Shown: piece by piece, positions 365 to 58,030 of the stretch
Layout: every line of letters begins with the position of its first letter
Position numbering within the stretch: the stretch's first letter is position 1
NCBI GenBank assembly: GCA_022508245.1
Contig: JAFLVO010000002.1
Coordinates: 62,001-126,000, forward strand
Length of the DNA: 64,000 nucleotides
Reading direction: 5' to 3'
DNA from: Clostridiales bacterium
GTDB lineage: Bacteria; Bacillota; Clostridia; Christensenellales; Borkfalkiaceae
Translations under genes and position numbers: made by a program
Notes under the pieces: model-generated
What the model was told of the DNA's origin: nothing
Database searches by the model: none
The model's input: the letters and a program-made list of their open reading frames with translations, nothing else

Positions 365-394
365 GCGTTAATTAAAGCATATATGGGGGCAATT
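365..394 (-). repeat. Dispersed ~30-bp element, copy 1 (reverse)
   Basis: Read on the minus strand this is AATTGCCCCC followed by ATATATGC and then TTAATTAACGC. It lies 24 bases after the stop codon of the upstream + strand gene, with its AT-rich end towards that gene. It shares its poly-C, ATATATG and TAAC blocks with the copies at 481, 3601, 4311, 9611, 25449, 25531, 28335 and 58001. Confidence 0.7.
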
Positions 395-480
395 TAAAAA
401 TAAAAAAGTAAAGTAGAGTAAAAATATCCGTTATGTTCAGTATTAAGCGGACAGCCACAAACAAGAAAAAACGTGTTAGT

Positions 481-504
481 TGCCACATATATAGGGGGTA
501 ATTA
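481..504 (-). repeat. Dispersed element, copy 2 (reverse, TTACCCCC variant)
   Basis: On the minus strand this reads TAATTACCCCC, then TATATATGTGGCA, with CTAAC following at the expected distance. It is about 115 bp from copy 1 in the same orientation. It differs from the main form by A for G before the C-tract and one extra T after it, the same variant as at 25531. Confidence 0.65.
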
Positions 505-506
505 TA

Positions 507-534
507 AAAACCCGTCGCTAAAGCGACGGGTTTT
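507..534 (-). terminator. Rho-independent terminator of pckG
   Basis: The 8-bp stem CCCGTCGC / GCGACGGG has a 4-nt loop and is flanked by A and T runs. On the minus strand it is followed by five T residues, 16 bases beyond the pckG stop codon. It may also act on the + strand. Confidence 0.85.
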
Positions 535-550
535 GCGTTATTTAAAATAA

Positions 551-2359
551 TTATTTGCAGTTCTTTTTAAGGGTTTCAAGGCAGTCCCAAAGCTCCTTGG
601 GGATACGGCTACCTATCGTGCCGTTGTAGTAATTTTCAATCTCTTCGGCTTCCTTTGCCCACTTTGCTTTGTCAACGGTAAGAATTTCTTTGAGTGCGTT
701 TTTGTCGAACTTCTTGCCGGCGCTGATTTCGTAGTCAAGACCCGTGAGGTCGATATCGTCAGCTTTCGGCACATATCCGATAGCCGTTTCCTCTGCGTCG
801 ACCGTGTCGTCGCAGCGCTTTAAAATCCACTCGAGAACACGCATATTGTCGCCGAAGCCGGGCCACATAAAGTTTCCGTCCGCGTCCGCCCTGAACCAGT
901 TTACGTTGAAAATCTTGGGAGGGTTCTTAACTTTTTTGCCCATTTCAATCCAATGAGCAAAATAGTCGCCCATATGATAGCCCGTGAAGGGCTTCATTGC
1001 CATAGGGTCGTGACGGAGAACGCCCGTTGCACCCGTTGCCGCCGCAGTCGTTTCAGAGGACATTGCCGAGCCCACGAACACGCCGTGATTCCAATCTCTC
1101 GACTGATATACGAGGGGGGTGGTAGATGCCCGTCTTCCGCCGAAGATGATTGCCGAGAGGGGAACGCCCTTCTTGGAGTCAAACTCGGGAGAAACGCAGG
1201 GGCAGTTCTTAGCAGGAGCCGTAAAGCGGCTGTTGGGGTGTGCCGCGCAGGTTGATTTGTCCTTTTTGTCGAACTTGTTCCTATCCCACGGCTTACCCGT
1301 CCAGTCGATGCAGTGTTCGGGAAGCTCCTTGGAAAGTCCCTCCCACCAAACCGTCATATCGTCGGTGTTGAGGGCAACATTTGTAAAAATAGTGCCTCTC
1401 TTGGTGGATTCGAGAGCGTTGTAGTTGGAGTGGGAGTTGGTTCCGGGCGCAACGCCGAAGAAACCGTTTTCGGGGTTGACCGCCCAAAGTCTTCCGTCGT
1501 CGCCAACTCTTATCCACGCAATATCGTCGCCCACACACTCAATCTTGTAGCCTTTTTCAAGGTAGTGCTTGGGGGGAATGAGCATTGCAAGGTTGGTCTT
1601 TCCGCAGGCCGAGGGAAACGCCGCCGCAACGTACTTTTTGTCGCCGTTGGGGAAAGTGATGCCCAAAATAAGCATATGCTCTGCCATCCAGCCCTCATTT
1701 TTGCCGAGATAGGAGGCAATTCGAAGAGCAAAGCACTTTTTGCCGAGCAGAACGTTACCGCCGTACGCCGAATTGACGGAAATAATGGTGTTATCCTGCG
1801 GGAAGTGCATAATGTATCTCTTTTCGGCGTCCACGTCGCACTTTGCGTGCAGACCCTTGATAAAGTCGCCATCCTTGCCGAGCGCGTCAAGACACTTTTT
1901 GCCTACACGGGTCATAATGTTCATGTTTAATACTACGTAAATAGAGTCGGTAACTTCAACGCCTATTTTGGCAAAATCGCTACCGACAACGCCCATCGAA
2001 TAGGGAATAACATACATTGTTCTGCCTTTCATAGAGCCGCGGGCGATTTCCTTGCACAGCTCGTATGCCTGACGGGGGTCCATCCAATAGTTGATGGGGC
2101 CCGCATCCTCTCTTTTTTGAGTGCAGATAAAGGTTCTGTCCTCCACGCGTGCAACGTCATTTACTTTCGTGCGGTGAAGATAGCAGTCGGGAAGAAGTTC
2201 CTCGTTGAGTTTAATAAGCTCGCCACTTTTAACAGCCTCCGCTTTGAGCGCCTTAATCTGCTCTTCGCTGCCGTCTATCCACACAATTTGGTCGGGCAGG
2301 GTAAGCGCGGCACTTTCGCGCACGAAATCAAGCACTTTTGCATTTTGGGTCAATGCCAT
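551..2359 (-). CDS. pckG: Phosphoenolpyruvate carboxykinase (GTP)
   Basis: Converts oxaloacetate and GTP into phosphoenolpyruvate, GDP and CO2, reversibly, in the cytosol. The 602 residues match the length of the GTP-dependent class. The P-loop-like kinase motif FPSACGKTN is at 248-256, the metal-binding segment VGDDIAWI at 276-283, and NPENGFFGVAPGTN follows at 295-308. All are hallmarks of the GTP rather than the ATP class. The start is fixed by AAGGAG about 8 bases before the ATG. In anaerobic fermenters the enzyme often runs towards oxaloacetate to save phosphoryl energy; that direction is inference here. It is transcribed alone from a promoter whose start site is covered by a 10-bp inverted repeat (2492-2523), so repression by an unidentified regulator is likely. 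Confidence 0.97.
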   Translation of the reverse strand: MALTQNAKVLDFVRESAALTLPDQIVWIDGSEEQIKALKAEAVKSGELIKLNEELLPDCYLHRTKVNDVARVEDRTFICTQKREDAGPINYWMDPRQAYELCKEIARGSMKGRTMYVIPYSMGVVGSDFAKIGVEVTDSIYVVLNMNIMTRVGKKCLDALGKDGDFIKGLHAKCDVDAEKRYIMHFPQDNTIISVNSAYGGNVLLGKKCFALRIASYLGKNEGWMAEHMLILGITFPNGDKKYVAAAFPSACGKTNLAMLIPPKHYLEKGYKIECVGDDIAWIRVGDDGRLWAVNPENGFFGVAPGTNSHSNYNALESTKRGTIFTNVALNTDDMTVWWEGLSKELPEHCIDWTGKPWDRNKFDKKDKSTCAAHPNSRFTAPAKNCPCVSPEFDSKKGVPLSAIIFGGRRASTTPLVYQSRDWNHGVFVGSAMSSETTAAATGATGVLRHDPMAMKPFTGYHMGDYFAHWIEMGKKVKNPPKIFNVNWFRADADGNFMWPGFGDNMRVLEWILKRCDDTVDAEETAIGYVPKADDIDLTGLDYEISAGKKFDKNALKEILTVDKAKWAKEAEEIENYYNGTIGSRIPKELWDCLETLKKNCK

Positions 2360-2491
2360 TTTAATTATCTCCTTAAAAAGTATTTAATTAACATTATATT
2401 ATAACATAAAAAAATTTGAAAAAATTTTCAAAAAGCAGCTGTCGCTGCCTCATTTTTCTTGCGAAAAACTTTTCTTATGTTTGAATACGGC

Positions 2492-2523: not shown

Positions 2524-2527
2524 TTGT

Positions 2528-2668: not shown

Positions 2669-3595
2669 ATGGGCGGTTATTCTAAAAGCATAGCGGTAAT
2701 AAGGGGGCTCAAAGACGGATTTTCTGCCGACGGCGGACAGCTGACAGGAGTTGTGAAGATAGAAAGCTACGGAAGGGCGATAAGAGTTGAGGTTACGAAG
2801 ATAAATTTCGCGCCCTTGAGCGAGGGAAAGTACGTGACGGGCATAACCGACGGAAAAAATACCGTAGTTTTTGAGGGAGATACCTACGAAGGCGACGCCG
2901 AAATAGATACCGGTTGCGGATTTGCAGCGCTCATTTGCTTTATTAACGGTTCGGTTTCGCCCATAGCTGCGGCGGTAAGCGGCAATTATCGGGGCGAGGC
3001 TCTCGGCATAAAGAGCTACATAGAACAGCTTGAGCGGGTAGGTATAAGTTCGCATGATGAACAGACCGAACAAAAATACGAGGATGAAGCTATAGCGGAG
3101 GACAACTATTATGAATACGCGCAAACTGATGAAAGCGGTGACACTGTATGCACGAATTCGCAAAAAGAGGAGAGAACACGCACAGCTGTACCGGATGAAA
3201 AGATTGTTGGCGCTGTCCAGAAGGAAAGCGGTTTAAATAGTAAAAAAACTCTGTCTCACGGCGGGTCGTTCTATGACAAGATGAAAGGAGAGATAGAGGG
3301 GCTGCTTTCCGCATACCCCGCAGAAAGCACGCTCTGTGCGTTGATAGAGGGATCAAAGTGGGTCAAAATTAACTACGGCGACGACAAGTATTATGTGTTC
3401 GGCGTAATATATTCGGGGGGCAATCCCCAATATTTGTGTTACGGCGTGCCGTCCGAAGGGCAAACCAGTCCGCCCGAGAGTATGGCGGGCTTAGCCTCGT
3501 TTGTTCCCGCAAATGCCGACGGAAGCGGAGGCGGATATTGGGTAATGTATCAGGATGCGGCCACGGGCGCAAGTATAAAGATAGACATAGAATAA
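2669..3595 (+). CDS. Uncharacterised two-part protein
   Basis: I do not recognise this 308-residue protein. It has no signal peptide or membrane segment. Residues 1-115 look like a compact globular domain (starting MGGYSKSIAVIRG, with several Gly-rich strands). Residues 120-205 are acidic, rich in Glu, Lys, Asp and Ser, and probably a disordered linker. Residues 206-308 form a second domain with FYDKMKGEIEGLL, SKWVKINYGDDKYYVFGVIY and a C-terminal GGGYWVMYQDAATG stretch. The start follows AAGAAGGGG at good spacing, and a TATAAT at 2636-2641 lies upstream behind a weak -35. It stands alone, divergent from pckG, and ends in a dispersed-element copy and a terminator. A regulatory or envelope-linked role cannot be argued from the sequence. 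Confidence 0.75.
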   Translation: MGGYSKSIAVIRGLKDGFSADGGQLTGVVKIESYGRAIRVEVTKINFAPLSEGKYVTGITDGKNTVVFEGDTYEGDAEIDTGCGFAALICFINGSVSPIAAAVSGNYRGEALGIKSYIEQLERVGISSHDEQTEQKYEDEAIAEDNYYEYAQTDESGDTVCTNSQKEERTRTAVPDEKIVGAVQKESGLNSKKTLSHGGSFYDKMKGEIEGLLSAYPAESTLCALIEGSKWVKINYGDDKYYVFGVIYSGGNPQYLCYGVPSEGQTSPPESMAGLASFVPANADGSGGGYWVMYQDAATGASIKIDIE

Positions 3596-3600
3596 GCCCT

Positions 3601-3627
3601 TAATTAAGTGATATGTCGGGGGCAATT
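3601..3627 (-). repeat. Dispersed element, copy 3 (reverse)
   Basis: Minus strand: AATTGCCCCC, then GACATATCAC, then TTAATTA. It begins 5 bases after the stop codon of the 2669 gene. It is the most diverged intergenic copy, with ACATATCAC in place of ATATATGC. Confidence 0.55.
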
Positions 3628-3665: not shown

Positions 3666-3874
3666 TATTTCAGACCCTTAAAGGGCTTAAATACAATAAG
3701 AGCATAGATTAAAAAGAGAGCTGACACACCGCATACGGCGTAAAAAGAGCGATAAATAAGGGGCATGCCAAAGCTCAAAAAAAGTGGAAGATCAAAGCCC
3801 GTAAAAGCAAAAACGGCGGCACATATGCCTAAAATAACGAGGTTTGAAGCACATAAATAGCAAGTTAATTTCAT
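3665..3874 (-). CDS. Small membrane protein, DUF378-like
   Basis: This 69-residue protein is almost entirely hydrophobic, with two predicted membrane helices (about residues 8-30 and 42-63) and a short basic end (FKPFKGLK). The arrangement of helix, FTGFDLPLFLSFG turn, YRSFYAVCGVSALFLIYAL second helix is like the DUF378 (YuzA-type) family, whose function is unknown. The resemblance is moderate: the usual NWGL in the first turn is missing. The ATG has no strong ribosome binding site (GGGGC further upstream). It is followed on the same strand by nothing before the terminator, and is preceded by the gene at 3908-4168. Confidence 0.6.
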   Translation of the reverse strand: MKLTCYLCASNLVILGICAAVFAFTGFDLPLFLSFGMPLIYRSFYAVCGVSALFLIYALIVFKPFKGLK

Positions 3875-4310: not shown

Positions 4311-4338
4311 AAATGCCCCCCATATATGGCTTAAATAA
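4311..4338 (+). repeat. Dispersed element, copy 4 (forward), abutting a start codon
   Basis: AAATGCCCCCC, then ATATATGGC, then TTAAATAA, directly joined to the ATG at 4338-4340. No Shine-Dalgarno sequence lies in the normal window; the only purine-rich stretch (GAGGGG) is more than 20 bases upstream. Confidence 0.7.
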
Positions 4339-5501
4339 TGAGAAATTTTGTAAACAAAAAAGTGGCGGAGATGAAGCCGAGCGGCATAAGAAAATTTTTT
4401 GACATATTGCAGACTATGGAGGGAGCAATTTCGCTCGGTGTGGGAGAACCCGATTTTATTACTCCCCAAAACATCTGCGACGCCGCTATACAATCGATAA
4501 GAGAAGGCTATACACAATATACGGGAAACAGGGGATTGCCCGAGCTTCGGGAGAATATTACCCGATATTTGAGTGAGAGATTCGGTGTGGAATACCTGCC
4601 CGAGCAAACCTTAATTACCGTCGGTGCAAGCGAGGCGATAGACCTTGCGATTCGGGCTGTCTGCGAAGACGGGGACGAAATTTTAGTGCCCCAACCCTCC
4701 TTCGTCTCTTATTCTCCCACCGTAGTTTTGGCGGGCGGAGTACCCGTTCCCTTAATCTGTACGGAAGAAAACGGGTTTATTGTGACGCCAGAGGAGATTG
4801 AAAGGGCTGTAACAAAGAAAACCAAGGGCATAATTTTGTCCTACCCCAACAACCCGACAGGCGCAATAATGACGAAGGAGCAGCTTGAAAAAATAGCTCC
4901 TTTGATAGAAAAGTACGACCTGATCGTAATATCCGATGAAATATACGCCGAGCTCACCTACACGGGCAAGCATTTTTCTATTGCCGGACTGCCTGGAATG
5001 AATGAAAGAACTGTATATATAGGTGGTTTTTCAAAGGCGTTCGCTATGACGGGCTGGCGTGTGGGTTTTGTCTGCGCACCCAAAGAAGTGGACGAGGCAA
5101 TGTTTAAAATACACCAATACAGCATAATGTGCGCGCCTCAACCCAGCCAGCGCGCAGCAATTTGCGCACTTAAAGAAGGGTTTAAAGACGGTTTCGCAAG
5201 CGTAGAGGGCATGCGCGCCGAGTACTATCGCCGCGGAAAGTTCCTTGCGGAGTCTATGAATAAAATGGGACTTAAATGTTTCATGCCGCAGGGTGCGTTT
5301 TATATATTTGCAAACGTCGAAAGCACGGGTATGGACGGCGAGGAGTTTGCAAATGCCCTTTTGAACGAGCATAAGGTTGCGGTTGTGCCCGGTTCGGCGT
5401 TCGGGGAAGCGGGCAAGTACTTCGTGCGCTGTTCGTACGCCACCTCCATGGAAAACATCGAAAAGGCCGTTGCAAAGATAGAAAAATTTATCAACAAATA
5501 A
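4338..5501 (+). CDS. PLP-dependent class I/II aminotransferase
   Basis: Transfers an amino group between an amino acid and a 2-oxo acid; the substrate is not evident. Family features across 387 residues: SLGVGEPDF at 32-40, YPNNPTGA at 169-176, VISDEIY at 197-203, and the PLP lysine in GGFSKAFAMTGWRVGF (K233). The length and MKPSGIRKF near residue 12 fit the group that includes PatA and aspartate/aromatic aminotransferases of Firmicutes. The start must be the ATG at 4338 because an in-frame TAA lies two codons upstream. It has no recognisable ribosome binding site, which is unusual beside the strong sites elsewhere in this window. Transcribed alone from the promoter at 4221. Confidence 0.93.
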   Translation: MRNFVNKKVAEMKPSGIRKFFDILQTMEGAISLGVGEPDFITPQNICDAAIQSIREGYTQYTGNRGLPELRENITRYLSERFGVEYLPEQTLITVGASEAIDLAIRAVCEDGDEILVPQPSFVSYSPTVVLAGGVPVPLICTEENGFIVTPEEIERAVTKKTKGIILSYPNNPTGAIMTKEQLEKIAPLIEKYDLIVISDEIYAELTYTGKHFSIAGLPGMNERTVYIGGFSKAFAMTGWRVGFVCAPKEVDEAMFKIHQYSIMCAPQPSQRAAICALKEGFKDGFASVEGMRAEYYRRGKFLAESMNKMGLKCFMPQGAFYIFANVESTGMDGEEFANALLNEHKVAVVPGSAFGEAGKYFVRCSYATSMENIEKAVAKIEKFINK

Positions 5502-9610: not shown

Positions 9611-9643
9611 CAATTGCCCCCACAATATGCCTCAAATAACGCA
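9611..9643 (+). repeat. Dispersed element, copy 5 (forward) before holB
   Basis: CAATTGCCCCC, then ACAATATGC, then CTCAAATAACGCA. It sits in the 76-base gap between tmk and holB, 17 bases before the holB ATG. It interrupts what is otherwise a tightly packed operon. Confidence 0.7.
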
Positions 9644-9660
9644 TATTTTGCAAAATTAAA

Positions 9661-12524: not shown

Positions 12525-12525
12525 A

Positions 12526-13329
12526 ATGGTCTACTTTGTGGCAACACCCATAGGTAATTTAAAGGATATCACTCTGCGCGCGCTCGAGGTTCTGCGCTCT
12601 GTAGACGTAATCTACTGCGAGGATACCCGACACTCAATGGTTCTGCTCAATGCATACGATATAAAAAAGCCCTTAAAGGCATGCCATAAATTCAATGAAA
12701 AAGAGGCGGCAGAAAAAATAATTGATGACGCCGCTCAAGGGAGAGCGGTTGCCGTAATTTCGGATGCGGGGATGCCCGTAATTTCCGATCCCGGCAACAT
12801 AGTATGCGGGGAACTCAAAAAAGCGGGCGTGGAATACACGGTTATCCCCGGTGCGAACGCCGCGCTCTCCGCACTCATTTTATCGGGGCTGCCGTGCGAT
12901 AAATTTACCTTTTTAGGCTTCCTTCCCGACAAAGCAGGAGCACGAAAAGAGCTATTAAACAAGTTCAAAGCAGTTCAGTCAACCCTCGTCTTTCACGTCG
13001 CTCCGCAGGACATTGCCCCCCACATATGCTCGATCTACGAGGTTTTCGGCAACCGAAAAGCTTGCGCTGTAAGGGAGATAACCAAGCTGCACGAGGAGGC
13101 AATTCCCTTTATGCTTGCAGACGGATTTGAAGGGGAAAACAGAGGGGAGTTCGTGCTCGTTGTCGAGGGCGCGAAAGAGGAGGAAAACCCCCTGTGCAAA
13201 TTGAGCGAAAAAGAGCATATACTCCACTATATGTCGGGGGGAATGAGCAAAAAGGACGCCGTAAAGCAGGCGGCAAAGGACAGGGGCGTTCCCAAGAGCG
13301 AGCTGTACGGCTACTCGATTGATTTGTAA
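12526..13329 (+). CDS. rsmI: 16S rRNA 2'-O-methyltransferase RsmI
   Basis: Methylates the ribose of C1402 of 16S rRNA. The 267-residue protein begins MVYFVATPIGNLKDITLRALEVL, the family signature (VxTPIGNLxDixxRA). It then has CEDTRHS near 31-37 and AVISDAGMPVISDPG near 76-90. The usual FYESPHR motif is replaced by FHVAPQD, a variant I believe occurs in some Clostridia. Strong GGGAGG ribosome binding site. A stretch at 13012-13039 resembles the dispersed element but codes for DIAPHICSIYE without disturbing length. Confidence 0.95.
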   Translation: MVYFVATPIGNLKDITLRALEVLRSVDVIYCEDTRHSMVLLNAYDIKKPLKACHKFNEKEAAEKIIDDAAQGRAVAVISDAGMPVISDPGNIVCGELKKAGVEYTVIPGANAALSALILSGLPCDKFTFLGFLPDKAGARKELLNKFKAVQSTLVFHVAPQDIAPHICSIYEVFGNRKACAVREITKLHEEAIPFMLADGFEGENRGEFVLVVEGAKEEENPLCKLSEKEHILHYMSGGMSKKDAVKQAAKDRGVPKSELYGYSIDL

Positions 13330-14949: not shown

Positions 14950-16026
14950 TCAATATATAACCTTGTCTATAACGCCGCCGCCGAGGCAAGCGGTTTCGTC
15001 GTAGAATACCGCGTATTGCCCTTCGGTTACGGCGCGCTGAGGCTCGGAAAATTCAACTCTTGCCCCGCCGTCCGTTAAGTAAAGTTTCACGGGCTGTTCG
15101 GGTTGTCTGTATCTGAATTTTGCGGTGCAATTTAGCGTTAATTGAGGCATATATCCTATCCAATTTATGTTGGACACCTCGCATGCCTTGGAATATAGAG
15201 GGCTTTCGTCGCCGTGTGAAACATATAAAATGTTGTTCTGTAAATCTTTTTTCACGACGAACCATCTGCCTTCTTCGCCGCGTACGCCACCTAAATCAAG
15301 CCCTTTGCGCTGACCTATTGTGTAGTACATAAGACCTATATGTTCGCCGACTATTTTGTTATCGAGCGTTCTTATCTCGCCCGACTGCGCGGGGAGATAA
15401 TTTTGCAAAAATTTACGGAAGTTTCGCTCGCCGATAAAGCAGATGCCCGTGGAGTCCTTTTTGCCCGCCGTGGCAAGATTGTTCTCGAGCGCAATTTTTC
15501 TGACTTCCGACTTGTCGAGGACGGCAAGCGGGAATATTACGTTTTTAAGCTGTTCCTCGCGCACCTGATTTAAAAAATAGGTCTGATCCTTGCCGCTATC
15601 TTTTGCTTTTAAAAGTCGGGTTGTTCCGTCTTTATGTTCAATACCGCAGTAGTGACCCGTAGCAATATAGTCCGCGCCCATGCTCATGGCGTACTCGCGG
15701 AAGGGCCCGAACTTTATCTCGCGGTTGCACAAAACGTCGGGATTGGGAGTTCTGCCCGCTTTGTATTCCGAAAGGAAGTAAGAAAAAACCCGCTCGCGGT
15801 ACTGCTCGGCAAAGTTTACCGAGTAGTAGGGGATATCCAGTGCGGCACAAACTCTTCTGACGTCGGCATAGTCGCCGTCAGCCGTGCACGCACCGTCCGT
15901 ATCGTCCTCTTCCCAGTTCATCATAAAAAGACCTATTACGTTGTAACCCTGCCGTTTAAGAAGATATGCTGCGACCGAAGAATCTACTCCTCCGCTCATA
16001 CCCACGACAACCGTTTTCTGCGACAT
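14950..16026 (-). CDS. mnmA: tRNA-specific 2-thiouridylase MnmA
   Basis: Thiolates U34 of tRNAs for Lys, Glu and Gln. The 358 residues start [23 protein letters not shown] with the PP-loop SGGVDSS. The catalytic cysteines lie in [13 protein letters not shown] and [16 protein letters not shown]. Length and order are standard. AGAGGA precedes the ATG. A segment at 15135-15166 (codons for [12 protein letters not shown]) resembles the dispersed element in its flanks but not its C-tract. It is convergent with the 14535 gene; the sulfur donor desulfurase is not in the window. Confidence 0.96.
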
Positions 16027-20948: not shown

Positions 20949-20957
20949 AATACAAAA

Positions 20958-21030
20958 AAAACAAAACAGCGGCAATCGCCGCTGTTTTTTTATGTGAATT
21001 TTTTGAGGTAGGTTAAATCCAAACTCCACT
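20958..21030 (+). repeat. 73-bp direct repeat, left copy (terminator plus HNH 3' remnant)
   Basis: Identical to 23107-23179 except at 21023/23172 (A/G). It contains the terminator stem AACAGCGGC / GCCGCTGTT with a long T tract and, on the minus strand, the last 13 codons of the HNH gene (WSLDLTYLKKFT-stop; the one difference falls in these codons). It is therefore a duplicated piece of an older serA-terminator-HNH junction, marking the left border of the defence cassette. Confidence 0.92.
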
Positions 21031-23051: not shown

Positions 23052-23106
23052 TTTTATGTTAAAGTATAGAAGCAAAGTTGACTGCGCAAAAAATTAATGC
23101 GCACAT

Positions 23107-24839: not shown

Positions 24840-25454
24840 ATGGAAGAATTGAACGCGGAAAAAATTAAAAAATTAAAGCGCGGAGAGGCTGTCGGAACGA
24901 CGGCAACTATTGTTTGCTGTGTAATTTTGGCGGCGTTTATCGTGTGCTTTGCGATAGCGCAGACCAAGGATATATATATGCTCCGTATGATTTCCATAAT
25001 TTTACTGCCCATACTTTTGTTGCTGGCTATCGGGGTCTCGGCGTACTGCAATTTAAAATTCGGCAGAGAGCTAAATGCAATAATAAAAAATCACGTAAAA
25101 ACAGTGCTAATAGAAAACGCTCAGCTCATGCACCCGGACCGCAACGTGCTGTCCTTCGGTATTACGGTAAAAGAAAAAGACGCGGAAATTAAGGTGGGCA
25201 ACTTTAAAGAGAGCATAAAGTTTGATTTTTCGGCGTTCGGAAAGCTTTCGCCGATGAAAAAATCGGCAGTGGCGGAGGCAATCGCAGAGAGACTGAACAT
25301 TACCTTTTGCCGTATGCGCGACAGGGGCGTGCACTATAATTCGGTTTCCTACTTCCGTGTAAACGATAATCTAAAGAACGGAAAGGTAATCTATATTATA
25401 GAAAACGGACAACCCGACAAGCGGGCGTATAAAACATATTTGAAAAGCAATTAA
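24840..25454 (+). CDS. Uncharacterised two-helix membrane protein
   Basis: A 204-residue protein: short basic cytosolic N terminus (KIKKLKRGEAVG), two membrane helices (about 20-42 and 49-70), then a 130-residue soluble domain with alternating strands (VLSFGITVKEKDAEIKVGNF, SIKFDFSAFGKLSPMKKSAVAEAIAERL, KVIYIIENG). I do not recognise the soluble domain. It lies 17 bases after the ribbon-helix-helix gene and is probably in the same operon as the SPFH protein. Its stop codon is the TAA inside a forward copy of the dispersed element. Confidence 0.7.
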   Translation: MEELNAEKIKKLKRGEAVGTTATIVCCVILAAFIVCFAIAQTKDIYMLRMISIILLPILLLLAIGVSAYCNLKFGRELNAIIKNHVKTVLIENAQLMHPDRNVLSFGITVKEKDAEIKVGNFKESIKFDFSAFGKLSPMKKSAVAEAIAERLNITFCRMRDRGVHYNSVSYFRVNDNLKNGKVIYIIENGQPDKRAYKTYLKSN

Positions 25455-25480
25455 CCCCGATATATGCCGCAAATAACGCA
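25449..25480 (+). repeat. Dispersed element, copy 6 (forward), overlapping a stop codon
   Basis: AATTAACCCC, then GATATATGC, then CGCAAATAACGCA. The TAA at 25452-25454 is the stop codon of the preceding gene. Together with the reverse copy at 25531 it forms an inverted pair about 108 bp from end to end. Confidence 0.65.
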
Positions 25481-25530
25481 GGTTTTAGTATTATTGCGCT
25501 CTTTTTGGAAGATATTATTAAAAATAGCCG

Positions 25531-25556
25531 TAATCGTGGCATATATAGGGGGTAAC
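25531..25556 (-). repeat. Dispersed element, copy 7 (reverse, TTACCCCC variant)
   Basis: Minus strand: GTTACCCCC, then TATATATGCC, then ACGATTA. Inverted relative to copy 6; the ends could pair as terminal inverted repeats of a tiny unit. Confidence 0.6.
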
Positions 25557-25621
25557 AGGAAAAAACATCAAGCATCGGAAGTTTTTTGAATAACCTTATT
25601 GTTTTTGGCAATACTCATAGT

Positions 25622-28334: not shown

Positions 28335-28363
28335 AATTGCCCCCCAAATATGCCTTAAATAAC
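28335..28363 (+). repeat. Dispersed element, copy 8 (forward) before nrdG
   Basis: AATTGCCCCCC, then AAATATGCC, then TTAAATAAC, 9 bases before the nrdG ATG. A degraded look-alike (CACATATATGCTGCGCAATA) lies at about 28197-28216, between nrdD and this copy. Confidence 0.7.
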
Positions 28364-28372
28364 AGTGTTTTT

Positions 28373-38477: not shown

Positions 38478-41400
38478 ATGAGAAAGGGCTTGCAAAGAAA
38501 TTCAATTTTAGCAGTCTTACTCGCTATGTTCCTGGCTTTCAGCATAGCGGGCTTCGCAGTACTGTCCGCGGGCTTTAATGTAGCGGCAGACGATGAAGAC
38601 ACAAGCAAGTGGGACGGCGACCTCATTGCCGCAGGTTGGGGCAATGAAGGCAACGGTAAGGTAACGCCGGGTGAAAGCGATTACAAGGTTACTTATGTAG
38701 AGGGCAACGAGGGTAAAGTCCAATCTATCGAAATCGGTACCGCGGCAGCGTTCGCATATTTTGCGCACGAGGTTTACGTTGATACCGCCCATAATCTGGA
38801 CGGCGCAACGGTCAAACTTACAACCGATATCGACTTACAGAATCATATGTGGATACCCATCGGTCAGACGGCAAGGGGTAGCAGTTTGAGTATCAGATTT
38901 ACCGGAACCTTTGACGGTGGTAAGCATACGATATCCAATTTTAACTCCGGCAAGTTTATGGACAATGTCAAGCACAAATCTGCAAATAATTTTTATGTAG
39001 AATATTCGAGGGACGACGGACAAAAGGCGGAAATACCGCTTAATGTTAAGACAAACGATAACTTTGACAGCACTCACCCCGAATCACACGAATATTCGTA
39101 CGGTTTATTTGCTGCAGTGCAGGATATTGTTATTAAAGATTTAAATTTAGAAAACGTAAATCTGTCGTTGAAATCTTTTAACTTTACGCATAAAGACAAC
39201 GAGTCGGTTGGCGGAGTTTCAACCGATTACCTTGCGCAAGATACGTGTTCGCATGATGGGGATAGCGCAGGTGCAACCAGAGAGCTTGCTCCCGGCAGCG
39301 TGGGCACGTTAATAGCTTATGCGAGGGGCGCAGTGACCATGGAAAATTGCACCGTAGGTTCCAAGGGGGATAAAATGTCTTTGACCGTCAAAGGAACCAA
39401 CGGCTCACTCGGCGGTTTAATAGGCAGAGTTTATGCGTACGGTGCGGATGCTTCTGCTGCCAATTATCAAGACATTAAAATAACCGGTTGTAACAATTAC
39501 CTGGACATTGACGTGAATCATAACGGTTCTGTAGGCAGTGATAACGTCGGCGGTATCCTCGGATACACCGGAAACAGTAAAAAAGGACTTGATATAGAAA
39601 ATTGTATTAACTACGGAAATATTACCGGCGGTTCTTCCATCGGCGGTATTACCAGTATGTTCTACAGTAATGCCAGTGCGCCTGCACATAAAAATATTAT
39701 AAAAAATTGCGATAATTACGGCAACATTATTTCCAAAAACGCAACGTTGGTCGGTGGTATTTCCAACACAAACGGTTGGTGCGCTACTACATATGAGATT
39801 ATCGGTAACAACAATTACGGCAACATAGGCGGTCAAAAGCTTGTCGGCGGTATAATGGGTCACTTTTATGATAACGGTGCCGTTACGGTAATAGCAACCA
39901 ACAACTTTAATTATGGCGACATATATAGCTATGGTGTTGACGGCGAATCTTTTAATAACAATACTTCCACGGCTGCCTCTGCCGGCGGATATATCGGTTA
40001 CTTCAACTTCGGTACCGCTGCCACGGTAACTTATTCCGGCGGTAACCTCGGTACAGTATACGGAGTGGCAACTAAGGTAGACAGCGCTATCGGTAATAAA
40101 CCTACAACGTTTACGAAACAGTACTTTGTGGATGTAGGTTCTGTTAAAAAATACTCTGACCCGTCGCAGGTTCCCGAAGTACCTACAGAACACTCTCCCA
40201 ATTCACGTCCTTCTTATAAAACCACATCGAGCAACGGTTTTATATTGGATAGTACGGAAAAAATCATTTTGGGTCTTGACGGCGATACGGCGGTGAAAGA
40301 CGGAACGCTGACGATTCCCGGAACCGCTGAAACAATAGGCTTTGCGGCATTTGCGGGACATGATGAAATTAAAACAATTGCATTCCAAGGCAACAATATT
40401 AAAAAAATCGATGACTTTGCTTTTGCGGGCACGGGAATAACCTCGCTTGAATTGCCTGCAACTATTGAAACAGTCGGAAACTGTGCTTTTGGCGGTATCT
40501 CAACTTTAAACTACGTTACGCTTCCCGAAAATGCAAATGATATTTCGCTCGGCAAAGGCGTGTTTACCGGAACGAGGGAGAATAACGCTTCCGTTGCACA
40601 GGGCGCATATCTTATTGCTACGGGCAATAATCAGTACAAACTGTTGGCGGCAAACAGCGGACTGGCGGCTTGCGGCGGCGTATTGACGTATAAGGTAACG
40701 ATTAAGTATTACGTAAACAACCAGGAAGAGGGTTCGCCCGAAGAAAGATTATACCGTCAGGATTACAAGGTAACGTATAATGACGGAAAGTGGGCAATGA
40801 ATGATGCCATATCGAGCGTAGGCCCCGGAACGTACAATTGGCACAACAGTTCGTATGAAGGTATAATTGCTCAAATCAGCGACATAACCAAACTGCTTTC
40901 ATTGTTAGAAGACGAAACGATTGAATTGAATGCATACATTCAATCGGAAGACGGCAGTAAAGTATTTATCCCCCGCTTGGGAATCGTCTACGATGCAAAT
41001 AAGTCGTACACCGTAAACGAGCTCAATCCTCTTTTGTATACCACGAGTGATTTCATAACGGGCGATATGACGGTAACTATCGAGAAGTACGTACCGTTCG
41101 TAACAGGTGGAGAAGAGGGAACCCCTACGGTCATTCACAATGCCGGTGTGTACACTATAAAGGTCGTAGACCATAGCGATAGCAATGCAACTTATGAGTT
41201 TGATATTACTATCGAACGCGCAACCTTGGACCTTGCAGATGTTGCAAACCTTCAGTGGTACGTAACTCAAATAGGCGAAAACGGCGCAAATATCGAGCTT
41301 ACCACCGAAACGCTGTATATCTATGAATACAGCAACGGAAACGGCGTATATCCTTCGACCGAACCCCTTACCGCAGTGCAGATTTCAAATCTCGGACTCA

Positions 41401-43679
41401 AGAACGGATATACCAGAGAAATAGTTCAATACTCGGTAGTGCGTAACCGTAACGCGCAAATCACCATTGAATTAGTAAGTGATGCCTACACGGCTACGTT
41501 TACGGCCAATACCGGTACGACCGTTGGCAAATATACTGCTCAAGCTACTCTTAAAACCGTCAACTATTCGTTTACGGTCGGCAACGTCAGCAGCCTGCGC
41601 GGAATGACGATTTCGCTTACGAACGACAATACGGCAACCGTCAAGAAAGACTGGTACATAGTAGACATCAGCAACTGGCTTACCAACGGAAGCGGCGAAG
41701 ACTACGCTTTAACCGGCCTCAAGTTCGGTAGCGTAAGCGTTTCTGCACCCGTGCCCTATTACGGCGGCACCTCCGCAGAGATGACCATGACGCTTTCCAT
41801 TTATGATAATTCAAGCGCAAGCTATGTTAACGTAGGTCAGGCAAACACAAGCATAAGCAATTTCAGTCAGTATATCAACAGCGTAATGCCCGCCGGTAAC
41901 TACCGTTTGGTTATTACGGTCGGAGGCGTTACGACTACCGAGACCGACGGTTCCGAAACTTATCACAACGGTTTCGCAGAAACGATAGATTTCACGGTAG
42001 AAAAGGCTAAGCTTCCTGATCTTACCGAAATTCACAACCTGCTTAAGGACGGAGAAGGCTTCTCGATTGAAATTGCAAGCGAAGGCGACAACACGCTTTA
42101 CGATGAAACAACCGATGCGGCTATAAAAGCTTGGCTTGCTAATCTCTCAATCGATTTAAGCGGCACAATTTGGCAGGGCACCAATTATTACAGCACAAGC
42201 TACGCAATAGAGTTCAACCTCTTGCGCGCGCAGTCGGACGAGTACAGCGCAACTGTCAATACCTCAAAGCCCGACACATACACCGTATATTACAAAATTT
42301 CAGCGCTCAACTATTACAGCAGTATAGAAAATCTTGAGGCAGGCGACTCGCGGTTCAATTATAAGTTCACACTCATCAAGATTCAGCCTATGAATGCTCC
42401 CGAGTTCAGCGTTGCCGACTTGAAATATACGGGCAGCAAGGTTCAGCCTGCAATCGCCGATAACGCATTGTATGAAATCAACTGGAACGACAGCGAGTAC
42501 GTAACCGGCGGCGAGCACACCGTTTCGTTCACTTTGTACGACTCCGTTCACTATCGTTGGATTGAAAGCGAAGGCGTAGAGGTCGACGGCGCAACTGTAA
42601 CGGTAACCTATACCGTAGCAAAGGCGACGAACGGCTTTACCGTTTCGCTCAACATGCTCGGCTGGAGCTATGAAACACACGGCGAGGCAAACAACATTCG
42701 CGCAATACTCATATTCGGTGCAGCTGCGGACATTCACTTCAGTGTTATTAAGGAAGGCGAAAGCACAGCGGTTGAAGGACTTAGCGACTTTGGTATTGAT
42801 GCAAACGGCGCAGTGAGCGAAGCAATCGCAGCTCTTTTGAACGGCCTTTCCGCAGGCAGCTACACGCTACACGCTTCGGTAGCCGGCACGGTTAACTATG
42901 AAGGATTTACCGACGAAGTAGGCTTTGTCGTAAGCAAGGCAATAAACTCCTGGGCGGACGGTGATAAAGACCTTCAGCTTCCCAACTGGGTAGTCGGAAA
43001 ATATAACGCCGAAGAAACTCCCATAGTTGTCAATGCCGCACACGGCGACGTTAACATTATAATAACCGACATCGACGGCAACGAATATTATAACTCAGTA
43101 ACGGGCTTAAACAAGCTCAACGACTGCAAGGTTGGTAAATACCTGCTCAAAGCATGGGTTGACGAGACGGATAACTACGCAGCGCTTGCAGAAAGAACAT
43201 TCACAATCGAAGTATTCAAAGCACCCGGACTTCCTTGGTGGGCAACCCTTCTTATCGCGGTAGGCGCACTTGCATTGGCAGCGCTTATACTCTTCATTCT
43301 TTGGAAGAAGGGCGTATTCCAGATTCTTACCGAAAAGCTTACCGTCGCAATCCGCACCCGTGCGAGCATAGAGGCAACCATAGCTTCCGTCCGCGCAGCA
43401 AAGATGATGGAAGAAGGCAGACAGTCCGTTGCAGAAGCTAAACGCCGCGAGAGACTGGAGCAATTGCGCAAGAAGGCTCAAGAGGAGCGCGAAATGTCCC
43501 CTGAAGAGCGCGCAGCTAAATTAGAGGCTAAAGCTCAGGCAGACGCCGAAAAGGCAGAAAAACTCCGCAAGCGCAGTGAATCGGCTCAAAGAAGAGCAGA
43601 AAAAGTACGCAGTCAGAGTGGCAACACCGCAGAAGGTGCAGACGAAACCTCCAACCCCGAAACTCCGACGGAAGAATAA
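38478..43679 (+). CDS. Giant BspA-like surface protein with cytosolic coiled-coil tail
   Basis: A 1733-residue protein. Signal peptide 1-36 (AFSIAGFAVLSAG). Residues about 300-530 form beta-helix/GLUG-like repeats (NVGGILGYTG, SIGGITSMF, LVGGISNTNG, LVGGIMGHFY, each followed by NYGNI or NYGDI). Residues about 590-690 are LRR_5/BspA-type repeats (TIPGTAETIGFAAFAGHDEI, KKIDDFAFAGTGITSLELP). About 700-1580 hold repeated Ig/MBG-like units. A membrane helix follows (1587-1609, starting WWATLLIAVG), then a 124-residue Lys/Glu/Arg/Ala-rich tail predicted as coiled coil. There is no LPxTG signal; anchoring is by the helix. The charged cytosolic tail is unusual for a surface adhesin and suggests inside-outside linkage. 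The small coiled-coil gene 43 bases downstream is a likely partner. Strong AAGGAGG site. Confidence 0.85.
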   Translation: MRKGLQRNSILAVLLAMFLAFSIAGFAVLSAGFNVAADDEDTSKWDGDLIAAGWGNEGNGKVTPGESDYKVTYVEGNEGKVQSIEIGTAAAFAYFAHEVYVDTAHNLDGATVKLTTDIDLQNHMWIPIGQTARGSSLSIRFTGTFDGGKHTISNFNSGKFMDNVKHKSANNFYVEYSRDDGQKAEIPLNVKTNDNFDSTHPESHEYSYGLFAAVQDIVIKDLNLENVNLSLKSFNFTHKDNESVGGVSTDYLAQDTCSHDGDSAGATRELAPGSVGTLIAYARGAVTMENCTVGSKGDKMSLTVKGTNGSLGGLIGRVYAYGADASAANYQDIKITGCNNYLDIDVNHNGSVGSDNVGGILGYTGNSKKGLDIENCINYGNITGGSSIGGITSMFYSNASAPAHKNIIKNCDNYGNIISKNATLVGGISNTNGWCATTYEIIGNNNYGNIGGQKLVGGIMGHFYDNGAVTVIATNNFNYGDIYSYGVDGESFNNNTSTAASAGGYIGYFNFGTAATVTYSGGNLGTVYGVATKVDSAIGNKPTTFTKQYFVDVGSVKKYSDPSQVPEVPTEHSPNSRPSYKTTSSNGFILDSTEKIILGLDGDTAVKDGTLTIPGTAETIGFAAFAGHDEIKTIAFQGNNIKKIDDFAFAGTGITSLELPATIETVGNCAFGGISTLNYVTLPENANDISLGKGVFTGTRENNASVAQGAYLIATGNNQYKLLAANSGLAACGGVLTYKVTIKYYVNNQEEGSPEERLYRQDYKVTYNDGKWAMNDAISSVGPGTYNWHNSSYEGIIAQISDITKLLSLLEDETIELNAYIQSEDGSKVFIPRLGIVYDANKSYTVNELNPLLYTTSDFITGDMTVTIEKYVPFVTGGEEGTPTVIHNAGVYTIKVVDHSDSNATYEFDITIERATLDLADVANLQWYVTQIGENGANIELTTETLYIYEYSNGNGVYPSTEPLTAVQISNLGLKNGYTREIVQYSVVRNRNAQITIELVSDAYTATFTANTGTTVGKYTAQATLKTVNYSFTVGNVSSLRGMTISLTNDNTATVKKDWYIVDISNWLTNGSGEDYALTGLKFGSVSVSAPVPYYGGTSAEMTMTLSIYDNSSASYVNVGQANTSISNFSQYINSVMPAGNYRLVITVGGVTTTETDGSETYHNGFAETIDFTVEKAKLPDLTEIHNLLKDGEGFSIEIASEGDNTLYDETTDAAIKAWLANLSIDLSGTIWQGTNYYSTSYAIEFNLLRAQSDEYSATVNTSKPDTYTVYYKISALNYYSSIENLEAGDSRFNYKFTLIKIQPMNAPEFSVADLKYTGSKVQPAIADNALYEINWNDSEYVTGGEHTVSFTLYDSVHYRWIESEGVEVDGATVTVTYTVAKATNGFTVSLNMLGWSYETHGEANNIRAILIFGAAADIHFSVIKEGESTAVEGLSDFGIDANGAVSEAIAALLNGLSAGSYTLHASVAGTVNYEGFTDEVGFVVSKAINSWADGDKDLQLPNWVVGKYNAEETPIVVNAAHGDVNIIITDIDGNEYYNSVTGLNKLNDCKVGKYLLKAWVDETDNYAALAERTFTIEVFKAPGLPWWATLLIAVGALALAALILFILWKKGVFQILTEKLTVAIRTRASIEATIASVRAAKMMEEGRQSVAEAKRRERLEQLRKKAQEEREMSPEERAAKLEAKAQADAEKAEKLRKRSESAQRRAEKVRSQSGNTAEGADETSNPETPTEE

Positions 43680-44321: not shown

Positions 44322-44366
44322 ATATATTGAGCAAATACTTGACTACTCAATATATTGAGTGATAAT
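44322..44366 (+). promoter_or_regulatory. Collagen-like gene promoter with palindromic operator in the spacer
   Basis: TTGACT (44339-44344) and GATAAT (44361-44366) are separated by exactly the 16-bp perfect palindrome ACTCAATATATTGAGT (44345-44360). A second partial copy, AAATATATTGAGCA, lies at 44322-44335, close to the divergent XRE start. Confidence 0.8.
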
Positions 44367-44402
44367 ATACTATTACAGTGTGTAAAAAGGAGAAATAAAA
44401 TA

Positions 44403-45629
44403 ATGAAAAAGAAAAAGATTTTTGCGGCGCTTGCGTTGAGCGCATGTATGGCACTCGGCACGATGAGCGTTGCAGCTTGTTCGCCCAACAAAGGCAACAA
44501 TGGTAGCGGAAACACAGGCGACACCGTTGACAAAAGTATTATGCGAGTTTACGAGGCTTATGCCAAAGCAGCCGCAGCAAACGGCGATGATGTTATGGAC
44601 TACGAAGAGTGGTATGCAGACTTGCTTGCAAATGCCAAGGGCGAAAAGGGAGATAAAGGCGACAAAGGCGATACCGGTGCAACCGGAGCGCAGGGCGAAA
44701 AAGGTGACAAAGGAGACGACGGCGAAAAGGGCGAAGACGGAGCGGCAGGTAAGGACGGAAATACCTGGCTTGTAGGTACAACCGCACCCACCGCAACCGA
44801 CGGTAAGGACGGAGACCTCTATCTTGACTATACCACTTGGAACGTCTATCACAAGGAAAGCGGCGTATGGGTATTGCTTGGCAATATTAAAGGTGACAAA
44901 GGTGACAAGGGCGACAAGGGCGACAAGGGAGATAAAGGCGACAGTGGCTCACAGGGCGAAGTCGGCGAAAATGTAATAAAGGATTTCGGCTCGGTAACGG
45001 TCCCTGCAAATGATGGTACAAATGACGGTACATATGATTTAGACCTTACGGGCGTTGAGGCGGGTACATATTATCTTGTTGCAGAAACTTCCGTAACCCC
45101 TGCAAGCGGTATTCTTTCTTCCACTACCGATAATTATAAATATGATATGTATGCTCCGATAAAAGGCGAGTACAAAAGCGCTATAATAGTTAAAGAGGAG
45201 ACTACAACTCAAACAACGCTTACTAATTCCTCCGCATCGGAATTAACGGCAAGCGTAAAACTTGTTGAGTATGTTGCACCCGTTATAAAGGCGGGCGAAG
45301 AAATAGACGTACCTATGATGTATACGGGAGCTCAGCGCTATATGCCTGTACAATTAGATGCGGCATTACTTGGCAAAACGGTAAAGGTCACTATTAAATT
45401 CCCCGAAGTCTCTAAAGCTCCCGGCGTAATTTATCCGAAAGCAAGCACTAGTGCAGGGTATGCGTCATTTGGCGCTTGGAACACAACTTCTGATAAGATA
45501 GGAACGGGAATATATAGTAAAGAACTCGATTTAAGCAAAATGGGAGAAGAAACCTCCGTTGCTTTCAGAAGTCAAGATGCCAATACAGAATTTAACGCAA
45601 CTGTAAAATTTGAAATCGTAGAATCATAA
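44403..45629 (+). CDS. Collagen-like lipoprotein
   Basis: A 408-residue surface lipoprotein. Signal with lipobox VAAC (C26), then a short helical region. Gly-X-Y stretches of about 40 residues (79-119, GEKGDKGDKGDTGATGAQ pattern) and about 25 residues (162-187, mostly GDK repeats) are separated by a Trp/Tyr-rich module (GNTWLVGTTAPTATDGKDGDLYLDY and VYHKESGVWVLLG) commonly found beside bacterial collagen repeats. The C-terminal 210 residues are beta-rich and may be a trimerising or binding domain. Such proteins form triple helices on the cell surface. AAGGAG lies before the ATG. Expression is likely controlled by the divergent XRE protein. Confidence 0.88.
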   Translation: MKKKKIFAALALSACMALGTMSVAACSPNKGNNGSGNTGDTVDKSIMRVYEAYAKAAAANGDDVMDYEEWYADLLANAKGEKGDKGDKGDTGATGAQGEKGDKGDDGEKGEDGAAGKDGNTWLVGTTAPTATDGKDGDLYLDYTTWNVYHKESGVWVLLGNIKGDKGDKGDKGDKGDKGDSGSQGEVGENVIKDFGSVTVPANDGTNDGTYDLDLTGVEAGTYYLVAETSVTPASGILSSTTDNYKYDMYAPIKGEYKSAIIVKEETTTQTTLTNSSASELTASVKLVEYVAPVIKAGEEIDVPMMYTGAQRYMPVQLDAALLGKTVKVTIKFPEVSKAPGVIYPKASTSAGYASFGAWNTTSDKIGTGIYSKELDLSKMGEETSVAFRSQDANTEFNATVKFEIVES

Positions 45630-54987: not shown

Positions 54988-55003
54988 ATAATCCTTTAAA
55001 TAA

Positions 55004-55035: not shown

Positions 55036-55042
55036 AATTATA

Positions 55043-56614: not shown

Positions 56615-56768
56615 TTTTCTCTCCTATAAATGAGTTTTATTACAGTCAACTGCGCTTTTTACGGTTATATTCTACAATAAGACGAACTATATTTCAACGA
56701 AAAGGTGTAGAAAAAGCTCTATAAATCATAGATTTTTGTGGAAATTGATTTGAATTTTCCATATAAAA

Positions 56769-56794
56769 GCGCCCGCACCTTTAAGTGCGGGCGC
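56769..56794 (-). terminator. Terminator of the KDG kinase gene
   Basis: GCGCCCGCAC / GTGCGGGCGC stem around CTTTAA, with T4 on the minus strand. Confidence 0.82.
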
Positions 56795-56810
56795 ATAAAT
56801 TTAAAACCTA

Positions 56811-57845
56811 TTATCTGCGGATTTCGTATTCCTGATTCATAAGCTTCATAATAGACGATTCGTCGTCGGTAATGTTGAAGTCGCCGTGCATGGTGTGTTT
56901 GATAACCGAGGAAGCAACTGCAAAATTTACTATATCATCGGGAGGCATCTGGCGCATTATGGCGTAAATCATACCGCTTGCAAAAGCGTCGCCGCCGCCC
57001 ACGCGGTCTAAGATATTAAATCTGAAGGTACGGCTCTCGTAGGTTTCGCCGTCGTACCACATAAAGGCTTTAAGGCTGTTCTCACTGCCCGAGTGAACGT
57101 AGCGCACGTGTCTGCCTATTGCCTTGAAGTTGTAGCGCTTATGCAGTTCTCTGAAAATTCTGTCCTGCTCCTTGTAGGTGGGGTTCATGGAAAGCCCGTC
57201 TTTCATATCCTTGCCGCTCTCGTCGCGAAGATTTATGGGCTCAATGCCGAAGAGTACGTCAACGTATGGCAGATACTCCGTAATGCAGTCGCGCGCCTCC
57301 TGCCAGCCCCACAGAGCCGAGCGGAAGTTGCAGTCAAAGCTGACGGTAAGTCCAAGCTCTTTCGCGGCTTTAAGCGCGTTTGTTATAAGCACGCGGCAGT
57401 TTTTAGAAAGCGCGGGGGTAATTCCCGAAAGGTGAAGCCACGTGAATTTTTCCAATATCGCCTTAAAGTCCACCTTAGAGAAATCGTATGTTGCAAAGGA
57501 GGAGTCCTTTCTGTCGTAGGTTACTTTGGACGAGCGCACGCCGAAGCCCTCTTCAAGGAAGTAAATGCCCATTCTGCCCTTGTCGGAATAGATACAGGGC
57601 GAGCAATGAACGTCGTTACTTCTGAGATAACGGATAGCCGCCTTGCCTATTGAGGAGTCGGGCACGACGGTAAAGTAAGAGCTATCCACGCCGAGGTTGG
57701 AAAGGGATGCCGCAACGTTAGCCTCTGCACCGCCGTAGGTTACTTTAAACTCGTCTGTCGTTCTTATCTTCTCGTAGTTAGGGGGGGAAAGGCGCAAGAG
57801 CAATTCACCCATCGTAATAAATCTGATATCTTTAACAGATGCCAT
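56811..57845 (-). CDS. kdgK: PfkB-family carbohydrate kinase, KDG kinase-like
   Basis: A 344-residue ribokinase-fold enzyme, most like 2-keto-3-deoxygluconate kinase. It starts with ITMGELLLRLSPPNYEKI; VTYGGAEANVAASLSNLGVDSSYFTVVP is the substrate/PfkB signature 1. DRVGGGDAFASGMIYAI is the second signature with the catalytic Asp (GGGD rather than GAGD). KDG kinase is part of pectin and uronate breakdown, but no other genes of that path are here, so the substrate is open. A minus-strand TATAAT (57880-57885) lies upstream, with GGGAGA before the ATG. Confidence 0.85.
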   Translation of the reverse strand: MASVKDIRFITMGELLLRLSPPNYEKIRTTDEFKVTYGGAEANVAASLSNLGVDSSYFTVVPDSSIGKAAIRYLRSNDVHCSPCIYSDKGRMGIYFLEEGFGVRSSKVTYDRKDSSFATYDFSKVDFKAILEKFTWLHLSGITPALSKNCRVLITNALKAAKELGLTVSFDCNFRSALWGWQEARDCITEYLPYVDVLFGIEPINLRDESGKDMKDGLSMNPTYKEQDRIFRELHKRYNFKAIGRHVRYVHSGSENSLKAFMWYDGETYESRTFRFNILDRVGGGDAFASGMIYAIMRQMPPDDIVNFAVASSVIKHTMHGDFNITDDESSIMKLMNQEYEIRR

Positions 57846-57923
57846 AAATTTTCTCCCTATTTATGTACTGTATATATTATAACACTCATTTATTTGTTTG
57901 TACATACCCCTTTTTAAAATTCG

Positions 57924-57952
57924 TTGCAAAATTTTTAATTTTTTGATATTAT
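57924..57952 (+). promoter_or_regulatory. Promoter of the 2-hydroxyacid dehydrogenase gene
   Basis: TTGCAA (57924-57929), 17-base spacer, TATTAT (57947-57952). The dispersed element at 58001 lies in the resulting leader of about 95 bases. Confidence 0.65.
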
Positions 57953-58000
57953 GGAGTAAACAAGCGGGCATGTGTCAATGTCCGAAAGGGCGCAAATTTT

Positions 58001-58030
58001 CAATTGCCCCCCATATATGCTTGAAATAAC
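58001..58030 (+). repeat. Dispersed element, copy 9 (forward) in a 5' leader
   Basis: CAATTGCCCCCC, then ATATATGCT, then TGAAATAAC, 23 bases before the ATG. The clearest full-length copy. Confidence 0.75.

Follow-up and report, generated by a model that had tools for sequence, protein, structure and literature searches.

The DNA under study is a window of 64,000 nucleotides (C10:62001-126000) from G000, a draft metagenome-assembled genome (MAG) of a Borkfalkiaceae bacterium comprising 1,658,536 bases in 17 contigs. An earlier note on this window had described nine copies of a short dispersed element. These copies belong to a genus-specific site with an asymmetric 37-bp core, A/T-rich flanks phased to that core, tandem copies at stepped distances, a patchy distribution along the chromosome and partial conservation in place. 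The reading that we favor, at a little short of an even chance, is that each site is where a putative protein complex wraps approximately 245 bp of DNA, with a role in chromosome architecture.

A site matrix of 37 bp was refined on 54 stretches of G000 totaling 1,101,122 bases, and matches above 16 bits were taken as sites. There were 171 sites (92 on the + strand and 79 on the - strand, including C3:30320, a weak match overlapping a stronger one), or one per 6.4 kb of sampled DNA, compared to 1 in the same bases reversed; the motif is thus far commoner than chance predicts. All nine positions given in the earlier note were within, or 1 nt from, matrix sites. The exact pattern CCCCYATATATGC occurred 20 times genome-wide compared to 0 times for the reversed pattern. 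Short patterns are insufficient, since a loose 15-mer with 3 mismatches gave only a small excess (234 versus 185). The consensus of the 171 sites was AATTGCCCCCnAnATATGCCnnAAWTAACGCnnTTTT; the consensus proposed earlier had captured a real motif but was too short. Core positions T15 (169 of 171 sites), A16 (170) and T17 (170) were nearly invariant. The core was not a short palindrome, and no terminal inverted repeat was visible in the consensus. The C-run was mostly G at 18 of the 171 sites, 16 of which lie in open reading frames (ORFs), and the readout may therefore be partly of G/C content rather than of bases.

Outside the matrix, A/T content oscillated on both sides in a phase locked to the aligned sites. 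The period over the 171 sites was 11.70 bp in the left flank (5-95% bootstrap 11.60-11.80; amplitude 0.058 compared to a null maximum of 0.016) and 11.75 bp in the right flank (11.65-11.95; 0.034 compared to 0.013), and 124 isolated sites alone gave 11.65 and 11.80 bp, respectively. The dinucleotides AA and TT were phased and TA hardly so. An independent set of 122 sites from loci of other species, with G000 and its close relative HAN108 excluded, had periods of 11.70 bp (left) and 11.85 bp (right), and its profile correlated with that of G000 at 0.76 and 0.53, respectively. DNA more than 5 kb from sites had only a weak peak at 10.1 bp. The extent of the phasing was determined from 165 isolated sites among 290, using 35-base windows and 200 shuffles. 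Every window from -119 to +125, approximately 245 bp, outscored each of the 200 shuffles; farther out, as far as -189 and +195, windows were just over the 95% level, and none was clearly so beyond. When the 168 of 171 sites with complete flanks were divided into four bit classes, from 16-22 bits upward, the classes had a common amplitude and phase, with the right flank of the 16-22-bit class over the 95% level and below the null maximum. Around two sets of weak matches distant from sites (102 and 172) and around 124 matches in reversed sequence, flanks were at noise level. Because the flanks were not used in site finding, their phasing also supports the weaker sites within genes. The flanks had a mirror symmetry of 0.73 (null maximum 0.56), for which centers at 9.5, 15 and 20.5 were indistinguishable. 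The A-tract periodicity of bacterial genomes, as outlined in the excerpts of that literature consulted, likewise has AA and TT phased near 11 bp; the phasing here, in contrast, was locked to a core, extended about 120 bp to each side and was absent away from sites. Such an arrangement, a specific asymmetric core amid approximately 245 bp in which A/T-rich stretches recur once per turn, is that of DNA bending around a protein.

Neighboring sites were also phased to one another. Among pairs 40-130 nt apart, 19 of 20 had the same orientation (p 4e-5), and the same-orientation distances clustered at 65-69, 77-78 and 88-89 nt, that is, in steps of about 11 bp (p 0.005; n = 20, with one distance being the sum of two others). 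Distances of 41, 46 and 92 nt fitted these steps more poorly. Tandem duplication was rejected as the origin of close pairs, the flanks of tandem copies being hardly more alike than random flanks.

The position of sites relative to genes differed from what the nine strong copies had suggested. The gene caller was simple and took the longest start, so that counts within ORFs are an upper bound; it erred, for example, in placing 28335 inside nrdG and C3:30309 inside a 51-residue ORF. The copies had been called intergenic, but up to 105 of the 171 sites were in ORFs, with 53 in spacers and 13 on edges. Of the 34 best sites (38 bits or more), 24 were in spacers, with edges and ORFs holding 5 each. 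Densities per 10 kb by site center were 15.8 in convergent spacers, 5.9 and 3.4 in tandem spacers, 1.7 in divergent spacers and 1.1 in coding DNA. Convergent spacers were the richest class (26 sites, 9 times the divergent density; excess p 9e-7) and divergent spacers the poorest (4 of 62 spacer sites; deficit p 0.001), contrary to the claim that forward copies lie directly before genes.

Genomes were searched with a model of the site, for which the best 150, 121 or 25 candidates per genome were scored, so that high copy numbers are lower bounds. Among 41 genomes searched at E<=0.01, 24 matched, namely 23 of 25 members of the genus (G000 included), with 1 to at least 113 copies each, and 1 of 16 other genomes of the order, with a single hit at E 0.006. 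A search of 199 genomes of the order with strict filters and E<=1e-4 matched 3, all among the 5 genus members; none of 8 genomes from other genera of the family and none of the remaining 186 matched. The exact 25-base pattern was found in 29 stretches of a species-genome collection, all from uncultured Clostridia or Clostridiales MAGs, and was absent from the viral contigs searched.

Under the favored reading, each copy would be an asymmetric core bound by a trans-acting protein complex of the genus. The complex would read the core and wrap or bend the DNA on both sides, over approximately 245 bp, via A/T-rich faces every 11.7 bp. Since this spacing exceeds the helical repeat of 10.5 bp (a rotation of 41 degrees per bend), geometry suggests a right-handed path with about 102 bp per superhelical turn, which would store positive toroidal supercoils or fit negative plectonemic ones. 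Sites lie mostly where promoters are left undisturbed (3' ends and convergent spacers), with others inside genes, and their patches leave out the terminus region. The likely role would be to fix the points at which supercoils are held or loops begin. 

The foremost rival is that these are unusually strong, sequence-specific DNA gyrase sites, comparable to the Mu strong gyrase site and the bacterial interspersed mosaic element (BIME) type BIME-2, which would determine the places, mostly 3' of transcription units, at which supercoils are introduced; we consider this unlikely, if deserving of serious attention. Excerpts of PMC6379681 describe an E. coli gyrase motif with a center at -16 to +19 and two 47-bp flanks in which G+C is periodic at 10.75 bp, with A/T minor grooves facing the protein and sites enriched downstream of active operons. 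Excerpts of PMC12324340 report that every gyrase tested had periodic GC within 120 bp, together with the palindromic core preferences -4G/+8C and -2A/+6T, and gyrase wrapping is discussed in the part of PMC12393610 consulted. The layout here, a 37-bp center with phased flanks on both sides and an excess in convergent spacers, is like that of the E. coli and Mu sites (a center of approximately 36 bp, phased G+C flanks and a 3'-end excess), and GyrA with a GyrA-box-like motif was present in 14 of 14 genus genomes examined. However, the present core is strongly specified, asymmetric and without the palindromic cleavage preferences, matching at most 2 of the 4 at 50% or more in any register on either strand. 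The phased region is approximately 245 bp with a period of 11.7 bp, compared to 130 bp and 10.75 bp for gyrase, and among the 199 genomes of the order, at E<=1e-4, the motif was confined to one genus. Gyrase is also present in the site-poor genomes G006 and G013 and in site-free genomes of other genera. A dedicated wrapping complex is therefore favored over gyrase. If the sites did belong to gyrase, no gyrase address known to us would be more sequence-specific. As an additional observation, the GyrA-box-like motif varied within the genus (QHRGGMG, QNRGGKG, QNRGGMG) with no evident link to site number (L195, L186-L201). Gyrase paralogs as the cause of site number were rejected, there being no clear link among 16 genus genomes; in these, topoisomerase A matches numbered exactly two in 12, three (partly fragments) in G007 and G013, and one in G001 and G010.

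Sites were strongly patchy along the chromosome. The variance/mean ratio per 10 kb was 3.36 (null maximum 1.75), and 62 of 106 bins of 10 kb had no site, compared to 23 expected; the earlier estimate of hundreds per genome if uniform had the correct order of magnitude, but sites are spread very unevenly. C1 had its last site at 405.9 kb, and the 200 kb of its 420-810 kb interval that were sampled had 0 sites, compared to 31 expected. A whole-genome model scan had a single weak match there (C1:496850, E 0.16). This region includes the terminus, with GC skew and gene direction flipping between 560 and 600 kb. At the opposite GC-skew flip, parB lies at C10:49.8 kb; in the model scan the first site on C10 was at 59.8 kb, with many to the right and none to the left, where all but 2 kb was also covered by the sampled skew analysis. 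An origin-domain site was rejected on these grounds, with parB and the skew flip placing the origin near C10:50 kb. There was no strand bias relative to replication (28 + and 28 - sites on C1, all lying to the same side of the skew flip), and a replication-oriented site such as Chi, the FtsK orienting polar sequences (KOPS) or the SpoIIIE recognition sequences (SRS) was rejected. Proteins beside strong sites were largely housekeeping and sporulation proteins (30 tested), the sporulation genes by best NCBIfam match being yunB, cwlD, spoVT, spoVB, sigE and sigG, not all above the cut-off. Site-free stretches also held core genes, such as mutL, dnaB and pfkA (20 proteins tested), and core versus accessory content was rejected as the sole cause of the patches. 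At L117 and L120, sites of two other species adjoin genes whose G000 counterparts lie in the site-free C1:740-745 kb; therefore, the genus as a whole does not keep this region free of sites.

Three other observations concern the chromosome. The genes dnaA (C13:35062) and parB (C10:49815) are on different contigs, dnaA being at least about 85 kb from the parB and GC-skew flip that mark the likely origin. L169 (C1:195001-215000) is site-free, has a GC content of 0.346 and GC skew of +0.16 between neighboring stretches of GC content around 0.46, and has called genes on one strand only; it is perhaps an acquired island. In L136-L137 (C11:100001-139552), all called genes are on the + strand, GC skew is negative or zero and GC content is about 0.495. 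That stretch, which has one site, at its edge, may hold highly expressed operons.

This distribution bears on a second rival, which we regard as rather improbable: a DNA-uptake signal that marks self DNA for transformation and spreads by uptake-biased recombination, as do the uptake signal sequences (USS) of Pasteurellaceae and the DNA uptake sequences (DUS) of Neisseriaceae. Like these, the present sites are scattered through genes and spacers alike, in either orientation, and are lineage-specific, being few or absent in some lineages of the one genus. The Haemophilus USS has helically phased A/T tracts, and ComEC, the sole competence protein searched, was found in 22 of 25 genomes, G000 included. 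However, ComEC was also present in site-poor and other-genus genomes. Known USS and DUS occur roughly once per kb, whereas the present sites are sparser, clustered rather than even, and lacking from the sampled terminus region; site-free stretches of the sample include core genes. The sites also combine a 37-bp core with long phased flanks, and we know of no counterpart to a phased region of 245 bp. A signal of this type would be the first in Clostridia known to us.

A third possibility, which we judge distinctly improbable, is a nucleoid-occlusion or polar-anchoring address, analogous to those of Noc, SlmA or RacA, read by a sequence-specific protein without wrapping. The clusters and the lack of sites in the sampled terminus region would fit such an address, as would the sporulation genes of the organism, and matS, SlmA, Noc and RacA sites likewise number on the order of 100 with a regional distribution. 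Sites of the Noc, SlmA and RacA type are short palindromes, unlike the asymmetric core here, and the present sites differ further in apparently forming patches, in this draft genome, rather than one domain and in their extended phased DNA, which this explanation leaves unaccounted for. Moreover, G000 has one ParB_N protein and no Noc-like paralog, and the surroundings of parB, with the 59 kb to the left, are site-free. 

Of the options in the earlier note, only a protein-binding site (nucleoid, segregation or uptake signal) survives. A transcriptional or mRNA-leader signal is very doubtful. Some copies in the window do precede starts (9612, 28335, 58002), but divergent spacers were the poorest class and convergent spacers the richest, and sites within ORFs were about as often antisense (56) as sense (49), in all frames. 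An RNA element was rejected, an Rfam scan of the window having only a tRNA above thresholds.

The remaining option, a tiny non-autonomous mobile repeat, was assessed by comparing places across genomes. In 22 comparisons over 16 in-gene sites, no indel was present at the site in 21, the exception being a pair of 41% identity. A site above 20 bits was kept in 13 of the 22 pairs and not kept in 9, several of these of low protein identity; most of the kept pairs are biased, their loci having been fetched by the motif and sometimes by that very site (ligA, L082; the gene before sigE, L088). Because 21 of 22 places lack an indel, a mobile unit is contradicted within genes; spacer copies are less clear, and some site-carrying spacers were much longer than their counterparts in relatives. 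The spoVT-spoVB spacer, for example, has 3 copies in G000 and none in G004 and G009. Repeats of the repetitive extragenic palindromic (REP) and BIME, enterobacterial repetitive intergenic consensus (ERIC) and miniature inverted-repeat transposable element (MITE) types are likewise short, dispersed and frequent in convergent spacers, but no hairpin or terminal repeats were seen here, tandem copies had non-homologous flanks, viral contigs lacked the exact pattern and in-gene sites differed from those of relatives by substitutions, which makes a mobile repeat scarcely credible.

Conservation in place was clearest in ligA, the unbiased case, for which loci were fetched by LigA protein similarity. 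Counting G000, 12 of 29 genus genomes had an antisense site above 20 bits over the same codons, their LigA proteins ranging in identity from 100% to 66.6%, and in HAN108 the site reached 45.0 bits; 3 of 30 rows (G016, G018, G046) had no value, and in G042 a 25.5-bit site at the usual place had been overlooked by the alignment map. In 6 of the 8 genomes having no more than 5 copies genome-wide, the ligA site scored under 16 bits. Its quality tracks the genome-wide number in part of the genus only; this is suggestive, though not proof, of a single trans-acting factor that site-poor lineages have lost or altered. In an alignment of 72.6 kb with HAN108 (90.6% identity to G000), 18 of 141 sites above 22 bits were compared, leaving out those that had brought the loci in. 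At nine coding sites, 277 of 288 core positions were identical, compared to 949 of 1080 in flanks of 60 bases on each side (p 1e-5).

Spacer sites varied more among relatives. Sites 3' of spoVT numbered three in G000, one in G003, one weak in G015, one borderline in G001 and none in the other 12 of 16 genomes. Sites were present within 420 nt 3' of ftsY in 5 of 28 (G000, G004, G005, G008 and G009). The pcrA-ligA site had one direction in G000, HAN108, G003 and G015 and the opposite in G004 and G009; orientation relative to genes is therefore immaterial. Separately, L236 (C11:26707-26808) contains a 34-residue copy of the N-terminus of SpoVT, with 97% identity, away from the spoVT locus itself.

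Several results weigh against a wrapping site for chromosome architecture. The phase drifts along the left flank, and 11.7 bp is therefore an average. Around matches of 10-16 bits (n = 20), phasing was not significant. Turnover of spacer sites is rapid, and at nine of them core conservation in the comparison with HAN108 was weak (identity 0.879 at informative and 0.744 at uninformative positions, 0.839 in flanks). The ligA site was absent from the site-rich genomes G002, G003 and G015. The patches are not a simple origin domain, since C10 is site-free on its left up to 59.8 kb. ParB_N counts did not match site numbers across genomes, and ParB paralogs were rejected as the cause of site number. 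A more specific form of the wrapping reading, a sequence-addressed nucleoprotein particle peculiar to the genus, in which a putative complex at the 37-bp core holds a right-handed wrap of approximately 245 bp at some 100-200 addresses, seems to us possible but doubtful. The same doubt covers the rest of this proposal, a bacterial positioning code that would also run through genes, would have arisen in one genus and would since have disappeared or faded in several of its lineages. In the literature consulted, no title or opening of an abstract described such a site, which is not proof of absence in print; one of four motif 10- to 15-mers occurred in 26 papers, and the ten titles listed among these were on unrelated topics.

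In the window there were 15 sites above 16 bits: the nine noted earlier and six more, all six classed within ORFs. The stretch from 28.4 to 58.0 kb was site-free.

Sites in the 64-kb window, by matrix match
Feature	Position	Strand	Bits	Context
Site	359..395	-	39.1	Convergent spacer, beside pckA
Site	467..503	-	35.6	Same spacer as 359..395, in tandem with that site at 108 nt
Weak site	3389..3425	-	18.2	Within ORF
Site	3591..3627	-	34.9	Overlaps stop of ORF 2669-3595
Site	3810..3846	+	22.9	Classed within ORF; kept in HAN108 (23.4 bits)
Site	4311..4347	+	35.8	Overlaps start of ORF 4338-5501
Site	9612..9648	+	44.4	Between tmk and holB
Site	13011..13047	+	30.4	Within ORF 12526-13329
Site	13209..13245	-	22.0	Within ORF 12526-13329
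Site	15129..15165	-	27.1	Within ORF 14950-16026(-)
Site	25449..25485	+	42.9	Overlaps stop of ORF 24840-25454
Site	25521..25557	-	28.0	72 nt from the 25449 site; sole opposite-orientation pair at 40-130 nt
Site	28335..28371	+	43.1	Directly before nrdG (the caller's TTG start wrongly spans the site)
Site	58002..58038	+	38.5	Before ORF 58054-58995; rare divergent class
Site	62374..62410	-	35.9	Classed within ORF

Two other features of the window were observed. A direct repeat of 89 nt, 91% identical, at 20942-21030 and 23091-23179, places the same hairpin and T-run 3' of two adjoining genes. DNA repeats with a 9-nt period at 44629-44969, within ORF 44355-45629, resemble those of a collagen-like G-x-y protein; this ORF is near the very large ORFs 31143-35300 and 38478-43679.

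Bacterial chromosome architecture is usually ascribed to proteins of little sequence specificity. Here, a strong and countable signal with a built-in bending pattern makes a binding protein, wrapping, handedness, supercoiling and loops directly testable, and the period of 11.7 bp, locked to a defined core, is a measurable physical prediction.

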